Source: Candidatus Zymogenaceae bacterium (GTDB lineage Bacteria > Desulfobacterota > Zymogenia > Zymogenales > Zymogenaceae). From it: DNA of 64,000 nt. The notes under the pieces are model-generated. The model ran no database searches. It worked only from the letters and a program-made list of their open reading frames with translations, and was not told the origin of the DNA. The DNA lies in assembly GCA_016931225.1 (NCBI GenBank), contig JAFGFE010000003.1, forward strand, positions 1 to 64,000, given 5' to 3'. Of the stretch, positions 2,620 to 9,531 are shown piece after piece. A program made the position numbers and the translations under genes. Within the stretch, counting starts at the first letter, position 1. Each line of letters starts with the position of its first letter.

Positions 2620-3918
2620 CTATAATGTGGTATCCCCCACCGCCTCCTCCACGGTGTGAAATGAGCCGGTGACCAGAACCCGGCCTCCCTCCCCCGCCCA
2701 TTCCCTCGCCGCGTTCAATGCATCTGCCACGCTTGCGTGGTGTGAGTACACGGCACCCAATCCCTTCGCCGCCTGCCCCAGCGTGTCCGTCCCCGCCGCC
2801 CGCTCGACATCCGGCCGGGCCAGGAAAAAGCGATCGGCGATTCCAACAAGCTCTTCCATTACACCCTCGATGTCCTTATCCGCCATCATCCCCAGGACCA
2901 GGGCCGTGGGCTTTTCCGGGAGCGTCCCCATATACGCAGCCAGTGCCTTCGCCGCGGCCCGATTGTGGGCCACATCCACGATCACCTCGGGCCGCTCCGA
3001 TATCACCTGGATGCGCCCCGGCAGCCGCGCCTCCCTTAACCCCGCACGTATCGCCTCATCCAATATCGTCACCCCCCGCTCTCCAAGGGATTCCTCCAGA
3101 TATTCCAGCGCCGCAATCGCCGTCGCGGCGTTCTCCCCCTGGTGGCGGCCGAAGAGCCCCGTCCGGATGCCGGTGACGGTCCTTTTCACGCCCCGGTAGG
3201 TCAGGACGCCGCCCGCTCCCTCCTCCATGAAAAAATCCTCTCCAAAAAACCGGGCCACGGCATTGTGCTCCTTCGCCCTTTTGATCAACACCGCCTTCGC
3301 CTCATCGGACACCCTCCCCGCCGCCAGACGGCCGCCGGGGGGGATGATCTCCGCCTTTTCCCCGGCGATGGCCGCCTCGGTCTCCCCCAGGTATTGGGTG
3401 TGGTCGAGGGAGACGGTGGTGATCACCGACACCATGGGATTTACGATGTTTGTGGCGTCGAACCGCCCGCCCATCCCCACCTCCATCACGGCGTAGTCGA
3501 CGTTTTTCCGGGAAAAATGGAGATACGCCAGCAGTGTCAGGAACTCGAAATAGGTGGGGGAAAGCCCCTCCGCACGGCTCGCCCGCAATTCCATGATGAG
3601 GGCGGCCGTCTCGGCCCGGGTGATCTCCCGACCGTTCACGGTCACCCGCTCCGTCACCGACGTGACGTGGGGGGAGTAATAGCACCCCGCCTTCATTCCC
3701 AGCGCCGTAAGCATCCCACCCAGATACGCCGCCGTGGACCCCTTCCCGTTGGTCCCTCCCACCAGTATCACCGGGATCGTGTCCTGGGGATCGCCAAGAA
3801 GCGCCGCCGCCCGGCGCATGACGGAGAGGTCGGTCCGCATCCCCCGGGCGGCAAGGCCCTCGAGGAATCGAAACGCCTCCGTGATCATTTCTTCGGTCGG
3901 GTGTTCTCTCGTCGTCAC
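2620..3918 (-). CDS. folC: FolC: dihydrofolate synthase/folylpolyglutamate synthase
   Basis: A 432-residue cytoplasmic Mur-ligase-family enzyme that adds glutamate to dihydropteroate and/or tetrahydrofolate using ATP. The P-loop GTNGKGST lies at about residues 54-61, followed by the YYSPHVTSVTERV and MEVGMGGRFDATN segments typical of FolC. The C-terminal domain has the DVAHN motif near residue 315. Length is normal for the family. The start is GTG, preceded by GGAG seven bases away. It lies 79 bases downstream of accD, the same order as in Escherichia coli, and a hairpin sits in that gap. Copies of its 3' end survive at about 573-660 and 1552-1746. Confidence 0.95.
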   Translation of the reverse strand: MTTREHPTEEMITEAFRFLEGLAARGMRTDLSVMRRAAALLGDPQDTIPVILVGGTNGKGSTAAYLGGMLTALGMKAGCYYSPHVTSVTERVTVNGREITRAETAALIMELRASRAEGLSPTYFEFLTLLAYLHFSRKNVDYAVMEVGMGGRFDATNIVNPMVSVITTVSLDHTQYLGETEAAIAGEKAEIIPPGGRLAAGRVSDEAKAVLIKRAKEHNAVARFFGEDFFMEEGAGGVLTYRGVKRTVTGIRTGLFGRHQGENAATAIAALEYLEESLGERGVTILDEAIRAGLREARLPGRIQVISERPEVIVDVAHNRAAAKALAAYMGTLPEKPTALVLGMMADKDIEGVMEELVGIADRFFLARPDVERAAGTDTLGQAAKGLGAVYSHHASVADALNAAREWAGEGGRVLVTGSFHTVEEAVGDTTL

Positions 3919-3933
3919 CTGTGCTCTCCATGT

Positions 3934-3970
3934 AAAACGACGCCGGAAACAGTCTCGTTTCCCGGCGTCG
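3934..3970 (-). terminator. Hairpin between accD and folC
   Basis: CGACGCCGG (3938-3946) pairs with CCGGCGTCG (3962-3970), with a further AAAC/GTTT inside. On the minus strand it ends in TTTT. It may partly terminate or punctuate the accD-folC message. Confidence 0.55.
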
Positions 3971-3997
3971 AGGCGTCCGGTTTGAAAGGATGTATCG

Positions 3998-4849
3998 TCA
4001 TGATAGGGGGGCGAGAAAGTCCAATAGCTTCCTGATGGTGGTTCGTATCTGCTTGCGCTCGACGATTTTATCGATCATCCCGTGTTTCAGGATTTCCTCC
4101 GCCTGCTGGAAGTTCTCCGGCGGCTTCTGGTTGATGGTGGACTCGATCACCCGCCGGCCGGTGAACCCGATGACGGCACCCGGCTCCGCGATGACGATAT
4201 CCCCCAGCATGGCGAAGCTGGCCGCGATGCCGCCGGTGGTCGGGTCCGTCAGAATGGAGATGTAAGGTATCCGGGTCTGCTTCAGGCGGGAGACGGCGGA
4301 GGTGGTCTTCGCCATCTGCAACAGCGAGATCAACCCCTCCTGCATGCGGGCGCCTCCGGACGCGGTGAAGGACACGAAGGGGAGCTCTTCTTTGATGGCC
4401 GTCTCGATGGCCCGGGTGATCTTTTCCCCCACGACGCTCCCCATGCTTCCCCCCATGAAGAAAAAGTCCATCACCGAGAGGATGACCTTTCGCTCCAGAA
4501 TGTCCGCCCGGCCCACGATCACCGCCTCGGTGGTGCCGCTTTTCTCCCTCGCTTTTTCGATGCGGTCAGGATAGGGGAGGCTGTCTGTAAAACCGATGGG
4601 ATCCGTCGTCTCGAGGTCGCCAAACAGCTCGACGAAGCTGTCCTGGTCTGCAACCAGGTCGATCCTGCGCCACGCCCCGATGCGGAAATGATGTCCGCAG
4701 GCGGTGCAGACGTCGTGATTGCGCCTCACCTCCTTGATGAATATAATCGAGTCACAGTCGGGACACTTGCGCCAGCTGTCTGTTTCGGTACCGGTTGCAT
4801 GTGCGCCGCCGTGCCGTTTCCTCTGTCCGTGTCCGGTTTTTGATCCCAT
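3998..4849 (-). CDS. accD: AccD: acetyl-CoA carboxylase carboxyltransferase beta subunit
   Basis: A 283-residue protein that, with AccA, transfers the carboxyl group from biotin to acetyl-CoA to make malonyl-CoA in fatty acid synthesis. The N-terminal zinc ribbon CPDC...CTAC has the spacing CX2C-X15-CX2C (residues 28-50). The crotonase-fold body contains FTASGGARMQEG and DPTTGGIAASFAMLGD, typical of AccD. No AccA is in the window. It is 9 bases downstream of the phosphodiesterase gene and most likely in the same operon, an unusual partner (see findings). Confidence 0.95.
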   Translation of the reverse strand: MGSKTGHGQRKRHGGAHATGTETDSWRKCPDCDSIIFIKEVRRNHDVCTACGHHFRIGAWRRIDLVADQDSFVELFGDLETTDPIGFTDSLPYPDRIEKAREKSGTTEAVIVGRADILERKVILSVMDFFFMGGSMGSVVGEKITRAIETAIKEELPFVSFTASGGARMQEGLISLLQMAKTTSAVSRLKQTRIPYISILTDPTTGGIAASFAMLGDIVIAEPGAVIGFTGRRVIESTINQKPPENFQQAEEILKHGMIDKIVERKQIRTTIRKLLDFLAPLS

Positions 4850-4858
4850 ATGTCTTAC

Positions 4859-5623
4859 TCACACGTTGAGCACCTGGCCGTGCCTGAGGATGATGATATT
4901 CGACCTTCCGATCGCCTCGATCTCTCTCTGTACCTGATCATAATGATTCGGTTTGAGGTGATGGACATAGATGATGACGTCATCCCTGGCAAGGCCCTGA
5001 AGGTCCCGGGCCAGTGTCTGGGGCGTATAATGCCCGCTGACGTCCGCGATATTTTGAAGCTCGTTCGGAAAGGACGTCTCGACGATAACCGCCTTTATAT
5101 CGCCGTGTTCGTTTACCGTTCTCCACAACAGCTCGCTGGGACCGGTATCGCCGGTGTAAATGAATCGTGAGCCGTCCTTACCGATGATATATCCCGCCGA
5201 CTCGATCACGTGCATGAGCGGAAACGTGCGGACCGAAAGGCCCTGCACGGTCATCTCATCCCCGATCCCGAACCCGATCAGCTCCACCACCGGAGATCCA
5301 TCGGAGATGATAGCGGTGAAATCCGGCCAGTTTATGTTGTTAAAAAAATATTTTTGAAAATACTCTATGGTCTTGTGAGACGCATACACGCGGATGGGGA
5401 GGTTTGGCCGTCCCAGAGCATTGTCCGATAAAAAGGCGATATCCTTGCAATGATCCAGGTGGAAATGCGTAATGAACACGTCACGTACCCGGTCCTGCTG
5501 ATCGATGGATAATTCCGTTACCACCTGACCGGCATCGAACAGGACAGAGCCATTTACAAGGTAGGCGGGTGATGAAAAGCCCGGGTGAAGCCCGCCATCA
5601 CACCCGAGTACCTTTATTCTCAT
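4859..5623 (-). CDS. Cyclic-nucleotide phosphodiesterase-like MBL-fold hydrolase
   Basis: A 254-residue metallo-beta-lactamase-fold protein. The metal motif THFHLDH places ligands at His53, His55, Asp57 and His58. YTGDTGPSELLW supplies the bridging Asp, and HHLKPNHY near the C-terminus the last His. The N-terminal pattern (IKVLGCDGG, LFDAG, DVFITH) resembles class II 3',5'-cyclic-nucleotide phosphodiesterases (PDEase_II). I infer cleavage of cAMP or cGMP, although other phosphodiester substrates are possible for this fold. It lies 18 bases downstream of a Crp-like regulator with an intact nucleotide pocket, which supports the cyclic-nucleotide reading, and 9 bases upstream of accD. No signal peptide is seen. 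Confidence 0.75.
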   Translation of the reverse strand: MRIKVLGCDGGLHPGFSSPAYLVNGSVLFDAGQVVTELSIDQQDRVRDVFITHFHLDHCKDIAFLSDNALGRPNLPIRVYASHKTIEYFQKYFFNNINWPDFTAIISDGSPVVELIGFGIGDEMTVQGLSVRTFPLMHVIESAGYIIGKDGSRFIYTGDTGPSELLWRTVNEHGDIKAVIVETSFPNELQNIADVSGHYTPQTLARDLQGLARDDVIIYVHHLKPNHYDQVQREIEAIGRSNIIILRHGQVLNV

Positions 5624-5641
5624 ACCTGTTCTCGGGTTATC

Positions 5642-6298
5642 CTATCCCAAGTCTCCGAACTCCTCTTTGAGTATGAGGAATTCGAAGTATTGCTTGAGCC
5701 TTTCGGTGTTGAGAACGGTAAACGTATCCGGAGATACGCTGACAATTTTCGCCCTTTCAAGTTTTCCGACGATATCCTGTACCATTTGCATCCGCACACC
5801 GGCCTTGGATGAGAGTCCCTCTATCGTCAAAGGAATGCTGATCTCTCCATTCTGTTTCCGCCCATCGGATTCGCACAGCCTTTCAAGGGTATGAATAACC
5901 CGGCTGTTACCGTCCTTTATCATCAACAGTTCTATTTTTTTATCCGTCTCGTCAAGACGATCGGCCAGCTTCTTGATCATTCGAAACGATACATCGGAAT
6001 TGCTCTTGACCATGTCCTCGAACGTTTTTGGATCGATTACCAGAAGCGTGCTGTCTTCAACAACCTCCGCCGTGGCAGATCTGGGCTTGTTGTTCAGGAT
6101 CGCCATCTCCCCGAAAAACTCGCCCTTGCCGAAATGGGCGAGTATCGTTTCCTGATCACCCAGCTTCTTTGAGATTTTCACCTTACCCGCATGAATGACA
6201 TACATCTCCTTGCTTGAGGAATCCCCTTCTTCAAACAGAATCGTGCCCTTGGTAAAATCACGACCATATTTTTTCAACAAAATGTCTTCTGCGGACAT
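5642..6298 (-). CDS. Crp/Fnr-family transcription regulator
   Basis: A 218-residue protein. The N-terminal cyclic-nucleotide-binding domain (about residues 14-130) contains FFGEMAIL and KPRSATAEV. The phosphate-binding set Gly63, Glu64, Arg73, Ser74 and Ala75 is complete, so binding of a real cyclic nucleotide is likely. A long dimer helix follows. The C-terminal winged helix (about 150-200) has LTIEGLSSKAGVRMQMVQDIVGKLERAKIV, with a recognition helix less canonical than E. coli Crp. No Fnr-type Cys cluster is present. A strong GGGAGG site precedes the ATG. It heads the run phosphodiesterase-accD-folC and could regulate that operon. Confidence 0.85.
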   Translation of the reverse strand: MSAEDILLKKYGRDFTKGTILFEEGDSSSKEMYVIHAGKVKISKKLGDQETILAHFGKGEFFGEMAILNNKPRSATAEVVEDSTLLVIDPKTFEDMVKSNSDVSFRMIKKLADRLDETDKKIELLMIKDGNSRVIHTLERLCESDGRKQNGEISIPLTIEGLSSKAGVRMQMVQDIVGKLERAKIVSVSPDTFTVLNTERLKQYFEFLILKEEFGDLG

Positions 6299-6370: not shown

Positions 6371-7957
6371 TCACCTGACGAGACCTTTATTATAGGCGGA
6401 TATAAATGCGTCGACGATATGAGCATCGAACTGGGTGCCGGAAAATCGCCGCAGCTCTTCGATGGCATCCCGGTCATCCATGGCCTTGCGGTAGGGACGA
6501 TCGGTGGTCATGGCGTCAAACGTATCCACCACCGCAATAATGCGGGCGATCAGCGGTATGTCCCCCCCCGTCAATCCCAAGGGATACCCCGTCCCATCCA
6601 TGCGTTCATGGTGGTGCATAATGCCCGGAATGGCGTCCTTGAGCATCTTGATATGTCCCAGAATCGTCGCACCCGTCTCTGGATGTTCCTTGATGATATC
6701 AAATTCCGAATCCGACAGCATGGTGTCTTTTCTGAGTATTGAATCTTCAATGCCTATTTTCCCCACATCGTGAAGAATCGAGGCGAGGCGCAGGTTTTCC
6801 TCATCGTTTTGATTGATGGAAAGCTGTGTGATAACCGCCATGCTGTACTGCATGACGCGCTTGGTATGATCGCCGGTATATGGATCCCGTTTTTCTATGG
6901 CATCCGCCAGGGCCTCGACCGTTTGAAAAAACGTTTCCCTCAATTCTTCATACAGACGGGCATTGTCTACGGCGATGGCCACCTGATGAGAGAGAGATAC
7001 CAAAAGCGACAGGTCATCCTCGGTAAAGTTTCTTTCATAGGTCTTGTTGATCGCCTGCAGTACGCCGATAATCTCGTCTTTCACCACCAGGGGAACGCAC
7101 ACCATGTTCCTGGTGCGAAATTGTGAGGTGTCGTCCGCCCGCTGTGAATGACGTGAATCCTGCTTGACCTCGTTTATCAGAAGCGGCTCGTTGTGTTCAG
7201 CCACCCACCCCGCGATACCCTCCCCCGGCTTGAGCCTGATTGTTTTGACCGCATCCCCTTTTTCACCCAGCGCCACTTCAAAATAGAGCTCTTGAGTCTG
7301 TTCATCTAAAAGCAACAAAGAACCGACCTCACACTCCATAAGGTGATCGACGGCCTCGATCGCCCGCTCCTTGACCGTTTGTGCATCCAGCGACGAATTC
7401 AATATGACCGCAAAGTGCGCCAACTCCGAAAACCGCATGGCATTGCGATCACGAATTTTCATCAGGCGAATATTGTCTATAAGAACAGAAAGAAGGGATG
7501 CCGCCTCAAAATAGATGGTGACAACGTCATCATTTACCGGAACATTTTTCTCCCGGGCGGGAATCTTCATGACGGCGATGCCGTTTCCCCCGAGAAGCAC
7601 CGGGATGTACACCTCATACACGCCGTTTTCATCGGGGCCGAACCGTCTGACTATACCCTGACCGGCTGTTTCGTACAGCCGATGCGCCACAACAGAATTC
7701 CCAAAAGAATCCGAAAACGATGTATCAAAATCTCCACGTCCTATTGGAAGGATACCGCCGGCATCGTCATCCACGATAAACAGCCGACATGCCTGTATCT
7801 GATACGATCGAATGATCTTCGCCAGCATCAGCCTGACCAACTCCTCGGGATTATCTATCTCCGTCGACATTCGGGTCAGATCGTCAAGGATACTTTTTCT
7901 TACTTCATCTCTGTCGACCGAAGTCACTCCAGTTCTCCAGCAGCGAAACTCGTACAT
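6371..7957 (-). CDS. GAF-domain HD-GYP phosphodiesterase
   Basis: A 528-residue soluble signalling protein. The N-terminal third looks like a degenerate sensor or GAF region. A clear GAF domain spans about residues 175-325 (LNSSLDAQ, GEGIAGWVAE, VPLVVKDEIIGVLQAINK). The C-terminal HD-GYP domain (about 335-520) has HDVGKIG, HPETG, HHHERMDGTGYP and DTFDAMTTDRPYR, with all metal and GYP motifs intact. I infer hydrolysis of cyclic di-GMP, gated by a small ligand. The ribosome-binding site is weak at this ATG; an internal GTG at about residue 11 is an alternative. It lies 72 bases upstream of the Crp-like gene on the same strand, so both may be co-transcribed. Confidence 0.88.
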   Translation of the reverse strand: MYEFRCWRTGVTSVDRDEVRKSILDDLTRMSTEIDNPEELVRLMLAKIIRSYQIQACRLFIVDDDAGGILPIGRGDFDTSFSDSFGNSVVAHRLYETAGQGIVRRFGPDENGVYEVYIPVLLGGNGIAVMKIPAREKNVPVNDDVVTIYFEAASLLSVLIDNIRLMKIRDRNAMRFSELAHFAVILNSSLDAQTVKERAIEAVDHLMECEVGSLLLLDEQTQELYFEVALGEKGDAVKTIRLKPGEGIAGWVAEHNEPLLINEVKQDSRHSQRADDTSQFRTRNMVCVPLVVKDEIIGVLQAINKTYERNFTEDDLSLLVSLSHQVAIAVDNARLYEELRETFFQTVEALADAIEKRDPYTGDHTKRVMQYSMAVITQLSINQNDEENLRLASILHDVGKIGIEDSILRKDTMLSDSEFDIIKEHPETGATILGHIKMLKDAIPGIMHHHERMDGTGYPLGLTGGDIPLIARIIAVVDTFDAMTTDRPYRKAMDDRDAIEELRRFSGTQFDAHIVDAFISAYNKGLVR

Positions 7958-8169: not shown

Positions 8170-9531
8170 TTACAAGTCCACCTTCGGTAAATCTTTGAGC
8201 GCCGCTTCTATCTTTTCGGAGGGATATTCGTAATCTTCCAGGTCCTTTTCGAAGTACTTATCGTACGCGGCCATGTCGAAGTGTCCGTGGCCGGAGAAGT
8301 TAAACAGGATTACCCGCTCTTCCTTCTTCTTTTTTGCATCCAGCGCCTCATCGATTGCCCCGCGAATGGCATGTGACGTTTCCGGCGCCGGAATGATGCC
8401 CTCGGTGCGTGCGAAGGTCACCGCCGCCTCAAAACACTCGTTCTGATGATAGGCCACGGCTTCAATGATCTTCTGGTCGTACAGGGTGCAGAGCGTCGGC
8501 GCCATACCGTGATATCTCAGACCCCCGGCGTGAATTCCCGGAGGCTCGAACGTATGGCCCAGGGTATGCATGAAGATCACCGGCGCCACCATGGCGGTAT
8601 CGCCGTAATCGTAGGCATACGGCCCCTTGGTGAGGGTCGGACATGAGTACGGCTCGGTCGCCAGGATTCTGGTCTTTTTCTTGTCCCTGAGTACTTCCCT
8701 GATGAACGGATAGGCGAGCCCCGCAAAGTTGCTGCCGCCTCCGACGCAACCGATGACCACATCCGGATAATCGCCGGTTTTACTCATCTGACGAAGGGCT
8801 TCTTCCCCCACCACCGTCTGATGCAGGCACACGTGATTCAGGACACTTCCGATAGAGTAATTCGTATCCCCATGGGTAGCGGCGTCTTCCACCGCCTCGG
8901 AGATGGCCATTCCCAGGGTCCCGTTGGTATTCGGATTTTTTTCCCGGATCATTCTCCCGATCTGGGTCTCTTCGCTGGGGCTTGAGAAGATCGTGCCGCC
9001 CCAGGTCTGGATCATCGACTTTCGGTACGGTTTCTGTTCAAACGATATCCGCACCATGTACACCGTCACGTCGATATCGAACAGACTGCCGGCAAAAGAC
9101 AGCGCGCTCCCCCACTGGCCGGCGCCGGTCTCCGTCGAGATACGCTTCATCCCGGCCTGCTTGTTGTAAAACGCCTGTGCCACAGCGGTGTTGGGTTTGT
9201 GCGAGCCGGCGGGCGATACGCTCTCGTTTTTATAGTAAATACGGGCGGGCGTGTTGAGATATTTCTCCAGCCGAGTCGCTCGAACCAGGGGCGTGGGCCT
9301 CCACAGGGAAAGGGCTTCCATCACCTCATCGGGGATGTCTATGAAGTCCTTCTCACTCACTTCCTGTTCTACCACGGCCATCGGAAAAATGGGCGCAAAG
9401 TCGTCCGGTGTTGCCGGCTTCAGGGTTTGAGGATTGAGCGTCGGTTTCATCGGAACCGGTAAATCGGCCACAACATTGTACCATTTGTTCGGCATCTCCG
9501 ATTTATCGAGGATGATCCTTTTTTTCGTCAT
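8170..9531 (-). CDS. trpB: TrpB2: tryptophan synthase beta chain (TrpB2 type)
   Basis: A 453-residue PLP enzyme that condenses indole with serine to form tryptophan. The PLP lysine is Lys112 in GSHKPNTA. ETGAGQWGSAL, GCVGGGSNFAGLAYPF and HAGGLRYHG are also present. The length, the N-terminal extension (DLP.PM.P.LNP) and the sequence place it in the TrpB2 group rather than the trpAB-operon TrpB1 group. No trpA or other trp gene is in the window, so it may act alone on free indole or in salvage. An AAGGAG site lies 7 bases before the ATG. Its upstream region carries a promoter, a Trp-rich leader peptide and two terminators, so tryptophan-dependent attenuation is likely. Confidence 0.93.
   Translation of the reverse strand: MTKKRIILDKSEMPNKWYNVVADLPVPMKPTLNPQTLKPATPDDFAPIFPMAVVEQEVSEKDFIDIPDEVMEALSLWRPTPLVRATRLEKYLNTPARIYYKNESVSPAGSHKPNTAVAQAFYNKQAGMKRISTETGAGQWGSALSFAGSLFDIDVTVYMVRISFEQKPYRKSMIQTWGGTIFSSPSEETQIGRMIREKNPNTNGTLGMAISEAVEDAATHGDTNYSIGSVLNHVCLHQTVVGEEALRQMSKTGDYPDVVIGCVGGGSNFAGLAYPFIREVLRDKKKTRILATEPYSCPTLTKGPYAYDYGDTAMVAPVIFMHTLGHTFEPPGIHAGGLRYHGMAPTLCTLYDQKIIEAVAYHQNECFEAAVTFARTEGIIPAPETSHAIRGAIDEALDAKKKKEERVILFNFSGHGHFDMAAYDKYFEKDLEDYEYPSEKIEAALKDLPKVDL

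Follow-up and report, generated by a model that had tools for sequence, protein, structure and literature searches.

A predicted class II cyclic-nucleotide phosphodiesterase and a CRP-like protein encoded with accD and folC in a Zymogenaceae bacterium

Described systems and the locus

In Mycobacterium tuberculosis, the cyclase Rv3645 and the class II-like phosphodiesterase (PDE) Rv1339 set fatty acid metabolism through cyclic AMP (cAMP) (PMC9995111). Rv1339 stands, together with YhfI and CpdA of Corynebacterium, among the atypical class II PDEs, for which a second source gives the signature [T/S]HxHxDH and names YhfI as a member (PMC9293780), and AccD is mentioned in a third as a target of (p)ppGpp only (PMC6416229). 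Here, we describe a locus within the first 64,000 nucleotides of contig JAFGFE010000003.1 (assembly GCA_016931225.1, Candidatus Zymogenaceae bacterium, phylum Desulfobacterota; this whole stretch is called the window below), at which the genes of a metallo-β-lactamase (MBL)-fold protein and of a CRP-like protein share one strand with accD and folC. Genes that resemble those of a sensor and a degrading enzyme for a cyclic nucleotide, probably cAMP, appear to share an operon with the opening step of fatty acid synthesis. On balance, we moderately favor the reading that the MBL protein is a class II cAMP PDE belonging to a second-messenger module built into the accD-folC operon, and that the CRP-like protein acts on a protein partner.

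The MBL protein shares with yeast PDE1 (4ojv; PDEase_II, PF02112) the MBL fold and the motifs HxHLDH, WPD[FL]TA, E[TC]S, and GH[LY][TS]P, and PDE1 is its top match in the VIA structural comparison, but it is about 110 residues shorter (254 versus 363), bacterial, and encoded in an accD-folC operon. With the atypical class II PDEs, as characterized in PMC9293780, it has the [T/S]HxHxDH signature in common, YhfI-type structures ranking second among its matches, whereas it reaches only 45.4 of the 400 bits set as the cut-off of the Rv1339-type equivalog model NF041851 and lies in a different gene context. The CRP-like protein resembles the CRP/FNR factors in its cyclic-nucleotide-binding (CNB) domain with a complete phosphate-binding cassette, its dimer helix, and its winged helix-turn-helix (wHTH) fold, and differs from them in the absence of the DNA-contact triad and in a variable recognition helix. 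In the M. tuberculosis system, too, a PDE of class II-like type acts with a cyclase on fatty acid metabolism; there, the effects are on the uptake and metabolism of fatty acids (PMC9995111), whereas the predicted link in the window is an operon with the carboxylase.

The protein families concerned are known, and we found no description of the module, of its spread, or of a CRP-like sensor lacking the DNA-contact residues beside accD in the literature searched, which left out most subscription journals. The occurrence of CHASE2 adenylate cyclases near the MBL gene above chance is likewise new here. What emerges is a putative PDE gene that keeps company with accD and/or folC in several phyla; in the lineage of the window, it is joined by a putative receptor that has an intact pocket but seems to lack CRP-type DNA reading. 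The genes of the locus, in the order of transcription, are as follows.

8170..9531, minus strand: TrpB-like pyridoxal phosphate enzyme (TrpB2), separated by 212 bases from the HD-GYP gene that follows it, perhaps the first gene of the run
6371..7957, minus strand: GAF/HD-GYP protein of 528 residues (GAF and HD_5 domains), a predicted cyclic di-GMP (c-di-GMP)-type phosphodiesterase, at the same place in the related genome G002
5642..6298, minus strand: CRP-like protein of 218 residues, with an intact pocket FGEMA..PRSATA and a degenerate recognition helix
4859..5623, minus strand: MBL-fold protein of 254 residues with the motif THFHLDH, a predicted class II-type cyclic-nucleotide phosphodiesterase
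3998..4849, minus strand: accD, acetyl-CoA carboxylase carboxyltransferase subunit beta, 283 residues (TIGR00515)
2620..3918, minus strand: folC, folylpolyglutamate/dihydrofolate synthase, 432 residues, with a GTG start (TIGR01499)

The five genes from HD-GYP to folC follow one another with successive gaps of 72, 18, 9, and 79 bases. The coordinates and the last three gaps agree exactly with the original prediction, which had also placed a GAF/HD-GYP gene just upstream of the CRP-like gene, where it indeed lies on the same strand, and whose gene names are borne out by the family searches: AccD and FolC pass their NCBIfam cut-offs (354.2 bits versus 317.45 for TIGR00515 and 353.5 versus 162.65 for TIGR01499), and the HD-GYP protein scores 137 bits with HD_5 and keeps both its HDxGK and its HHExxDGxGYP motif intact. 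No terminator-like site was found on the minus strand between 9100 and 2620, and promoter-like matches were at chance level (8 found, 6.1 expected); the genes are presumably co-transcribed.

The MBL-fold protein

The MBL protein matches PDEase_II at 49.6 bits, over the cut-off of 23.7, and Lactamase_B_2 at 62.5 bits, and PDEase_II is found in all 26 aligned homologues scanned (E<=1e-3). Our wider set comprises 145 distinct MBL proteins from loci L035-L193, leaving out L086, L087, L097, and L107 (high-GC Acidobacteria) and L165, at which a simple choice of open reading frame did not pick the MBL gene; the signature [T/S]HxHxDH is present in 144 of these and [T/S]HxHLDH in 112. A phmmer comparison with yeast PDE1 aligned the two proteins at HxHLDH and at the WPD[FL]TA segment and, in a weak piece, ETSFP..GHYTP with ECSCP..GHLSP of PDE1. 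The AlphaFold2 model is good (predicted local distance difference test, pLDDT, 93.5); its VIA match to PDE1 (Z 28.4, 2.2 Å, 249/254 residues, 25% identity) is followed by YhfI-type structures at Z 27.4 and 27.2 and by RNase Z at 27.1, and Foldseek ranks YhfI and PDE1 first. The likeness to class II cyclic-nucleotide PDEs that had been proposed for this protein is thereby upheld by family, motif, and top structural match, and its best reading, from sequence comparison and a model with a small structural lead, is that of a predicted class II-type cyclic-nucleotide PDE. For the anti-Pycsar PDE Apyc1, PF23023 matches 2 of the 26 homologues (best E 1.4e-4), the window protein not among them, and the Apyc1 structures 7u2s and 7u2r align with the model at Z 25.4.

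An alternative is that the protein is no cyclic-nucleotide PDE but a nuclease, of the RNase Z type or another, or a different phosphodiesterase, such as one completing the breakdown of HD-GYP products like pGpG. PDE1 leads the structural ranking by only about 1 Z over YhfI and 1.3 over RNase Z, RNase Z models score 42-74 bits in the MBL homologues, and one family with the MBL gene, described below, has no known cyclase of the classes searched; the RNase Z equivalog cut-offs of 252-293 bits are nevertheless far off (46.9 bits versus 292.95 for TIGR02651 in the window protein), and the uniform PDEase_II match, the weakly aligned segment shared with PDE1, and the adenylate cyclases encoded beside the MBL gene in other lineages all argue against this alternative. 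We regard it as somewhat unlikely.

The CRP-like protein

The CRP-like protein scores 88 bits with cNMP_binding, and the complete PRSAT-type pocket that had been noticed in it (residues 72-76) is confirmed by its homologues: within the phosphate-binding cassette, G63, E64, R73, A75, and T76 are invariant in 12 of 12, and S74 is kept in at least 90%. The DNA-binding half shows a different picture. The Arg-Glu-Arg triad of DNA contacts, which we take to be R180/E181/R185 in the numbering of E. coli CRP, is found in 0 of 14 operon-type homologues (all 12 in alignment A2, plus two at the control loci described below) versus 19 of 30 canonical CRPs, the latter being proteins of the same phylum that were found with the canonical CRP of the window genome and hence picked for likeness to it. 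Among pairs of proteins with 45-70% identity in the CNB domain, the mean CNB identity is 61.5% for the operon proteins and 51% for the canonical ones, and the corresponding identities of the helix-turn-helix (HTH) domain are 23% and 48%; the recognition helix is poorly conserved among the CRP-like homologues.

These observations bear on the classical reading, in which the CRP-like protein would be a cAMP-responsive transcription factor acting upstream of the operon and forming, with the PDE, a self-limiting loop over accD-folC; the original prediction had accordingly proposed to test binding of the regulator upstream of 6298. Such a role is consistent with the HTH_Crp_2 match of the window protein (33.4 bits, over the cut-off of 27), with the detection of this domain by Pfam in 10 of 12 homologues at E<=0.1, and with a wHTH fold that is still predicted (pLDDT ~85) within a model that is poor overall (pLDDT 60), leaving room for DNA contact of another kind. 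It is opposed by the missing triad, by the divergence of the HTH domain, and by the presence elsewhere in the window genome of one other HTH_Crp_2 protein (67.6 bits versus 35.7), a canonical CRP whose SRETVSR helix is intact. Since the triad is lost and the HTH domain poorly conserved, a DNA-binding regulator is the weaker reading and a protein-level sensor the stronger; control through binding upstream of 6298 finds no backing here, and we judge the classical loop decidedly improbable. From its sequence, the CRP-like protein is more likely a protein-level sensor of a cyclic nucleotide than a DNA reader of the CRP type.

Gene neighborhood and a proposed mode of control

The class to which the window belongs is represented by four genomes in our data set, and in one of the three relatives (G002) all five genes recur in the same order, with identities to the window of 68% for accD, 63% for the CRP-like protein, 62% for HD-GYP, and 47% for MBL. 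In the phylum sample of 395 genomes, the MBL protein has a match at E<=1e-3 in 219 and a strong match (E<=7.5e-19) in 104, and runs of MBL with accD and/or folC recur in Desulfobacterota-type bacteria, Nitrospirota, Zetaproteobacteria, and Bdellovibrionota. Among the best 80 of 209 relatives in species genomes, MBL-accD-folC is seen in Deltaproteobacteria-type bacteria; Zetaproteobacteria including Mariprofundus ferrooxydans PV-1 have trpB-trpA-MBL-accD-folC (trpA being named by place and reading, with no family search), Nitrospirota have MBL-accD, and an Oligoflexia bin has HD-GYP-MBL-accD. The same-strand runs of the 145 distinct MBL genes hold folC in 73 cases, accD in 64, trpB in 40, HD-GYP in 18, a CRP-like gene in 12, and a class III cyclase in 12, and lptD is often the next gene after folC (a cluster of 57 loci, with Pfam run on its representative). 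A close AccD (E<=1e-40) occurs in just 151 of the 395 phylum genomes, in keeping with the loci at which folC without accD comes after MBL.

The five-gene order in G002 and its pieces in several phyla make the arrangement more than chance and answer in the affirmative the question of conservation that the original prediction had raised; a quirk of the window genome is ruled out by G002 and many other genomes. At L056, L061, L068, and L069, queD-like and folE2 genes take the place of accD-folC after the MBL gene, which links it to pterin/folate genes in a second way. Among plasmids, 5 records contained distant relatives only, at <30% identity. The TrpB2 gene of the window (8170-9531) has an 82% identical counterpart at the same place in G002, and several other accD loci carry TrpB2 homologues (56-65% identical) upstream of trpB.

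As controls, we took 40 accD loci, all in genomes that lack a strong match to the MBL protein. The folC gene is present at 36 of them, so that accD-folC is, as had been stated, a common pair by itself; HD-GYP lies directly upstream of accD at 4 (a fifth, weak match lies elsewhere) and a CRP-like gene at 2; no cyclase is present at any, a null result that alone is not decisive. A putative receptor and a putative degrading enzyme do share one run in the window, as originally proposed, but the occurrence of CRP-like and HD-GYP genes upstream of accD without MBL means that they are no inseparable pair. These loci also bring in the explanation that we name as the best alternative, in which the stretch between trpA and accD tolerates insertions and the signaling genes ride on steady expression with no tie to lipid or folate synthesis. 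Besides the HD-GYP and CRP-like genes that occupy the gap in the controls, it can draw on a DEAD-box helicase-like gene (named from sequence, with no family search) that directly follows trpB, before trpA/accD, in L222 (3555-4922) and L233 (3599-4960), and on 42 of the 145 distinct MBL genes that have no such partner in their same-strand run. Against it, the recurring genes form one signaling set in many combinations over several phyla, with MBL proteins ~33-49% identical to that of the window, and MBL proteins with like neighbor labels group together on their tree. Such hitch-hiking appears to us unlikely.

The cyclic-nucleotide module that we prefer is also supported by the CHASE2-class III adenylate cyclases encoded beside the MBL gene in other lineages (neighbor clustering, with Pfam run on four). 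The arrangements are cyclase-MBL-accD (L035, L037, and L038, the accD of L038 being cut by the contig end), HD-GYP-CRP-cyclase-MBL (L040), cyclase-TPR/CNB-HD-GYP-CRP-MBL (L044 and L059), cyclase-HD-GYP-MBL-accD (L065), cyclase-MBL (L138), and MBL-cyclase (L180); in L150 and L178, the cyclase lies upstream of MBL with two genes between, and in L080, it lies downstream. Among the 73 regions of the 104 strong-match genomes that were taken with 6 kb flanks (other loci had 1.5 kb), 8 contain a cyclase, versus 0.81 expected for random gene placement (P 1.4e-6), which rules out proximity by chance; in genomes with a single cyclase, it is near MBL in 4 of 20, versus 0.084 expected (P 1.4e-6), and in the Nitrospirota genomes G396 and G398, the sole PF00211 match is the cyclase adjoining the MBL gene. 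On a quick MBL tree, the label "cyclase nearby without accD or folC" requires 11 changes, and for 8 of these, well-supported branches leave no other choice. The residues that we take to be catalytic, the metal-binding Asp, and the Lys/Thr of adenine type are present in each of the 16 clustered cyclases, so guanylate cyclases or dead enzymes are ruled out. A cyclase is present in 94 of 104 MBL-strong genomes versus 213 of 291 others, a comparison of little weight in which kinship is ignored. Two of these loci also hold, between cyclase and HD-GYP, a TPR protein with two CNB domains (L044 5196-6434 and L059 4940-6226; Pfam on the L044 protein), and the window genome has multi-CNB frames at C5:134192-137539.

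Several facts count against a cAMP module, in addition to the narrow lead of PDE1, the persistent wHTH fold, and the unlinked MBL genes given above. The cluster of the window itself contains no cyclase. The 8 cyclase regions come from only four families (f25 and f27 with three each, f54 and f10 with one each) and so are not 8 independent events, and of the 8 neighboring cyclases, 3 are on the opposite strand and one is ~5 kb away. In family f11, MBL, accD, and folC lie side by side in all 8 genomes (G013, G050, G085, G114, G142, G168, G193, and G259, with 1-4 CNB matches each), and none has a class III (PF00211) or CYTH cyclase, classes I, II, V, and VI not being covered; that family would thus rely on a cyclase of a different class, unless its MBL enzyme acts on a different substrate. 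The f27 genomes G153 and G267 also carry the MBL gene with no PF00211 match.

Taking these points together with those in its favor, we infer that the MBL protein depends on metal and cleaves 3',5'-cyclic nucleotides, with cAMP as its most likely substrate, in the manner of class II phosphodiesterases. It would belong to a loosely assembled module of CHASE2 adenylate cyclase, CNB-domain receptors, class II PDE, and HD-GYP, part of which would have been built, in the lineage of the window, into an old (trpBA-)accD-folC operon. The cyclases would make cAMP on a CHASE2 signal, and the PDE would keep cAMP low in growing cells: as its gene would be expressed along with accD and folC, the amount of PDE should rise and fall with biosynthetic growth, and cAMP would be reset when the growth operons are on. 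The CRP-like sensor would read the nucleotide level and signal to a protein partner, for which the HD-GYP enzyme or the carboxylase are the first candidates, and HD-GYP would add a cyclic-dinucleotide input. To our knowledge, and with no search aimed at the point, little is known of direct cyclic-nucleotide control of bacterial acetyl-CoA carboxylase. If the proposal holds, it offers testable proteins for the role of class II PDEs in bacteria and for the DNA-free action of CRP-fold sensors. A stronger form of it, in which a CRP-fold sensor that no longer reads DNA, encoded with its own class II PDE, directly tunes acetyl-CoA carboxylase or HD-GYP as a post-translational control by cAMP (with c-di-GMP) in several phyla, strikes us as quite doubtful; if true, it would place the committed step of fatty acid synthesis under post-translational control across those phyla.

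Downstream of folC, the window carries a tandem duplication (1-2444), in which 930-1229 repeats 1-300 (92%) and 1531-1693 repeats part of the 3' end of folC (79% to 2611-2773), giving a folC remnant reading frame at 1474-1758 on the minus strand that is flanked by similar small genes of unknown family at 912-1304 and 2016-2444.

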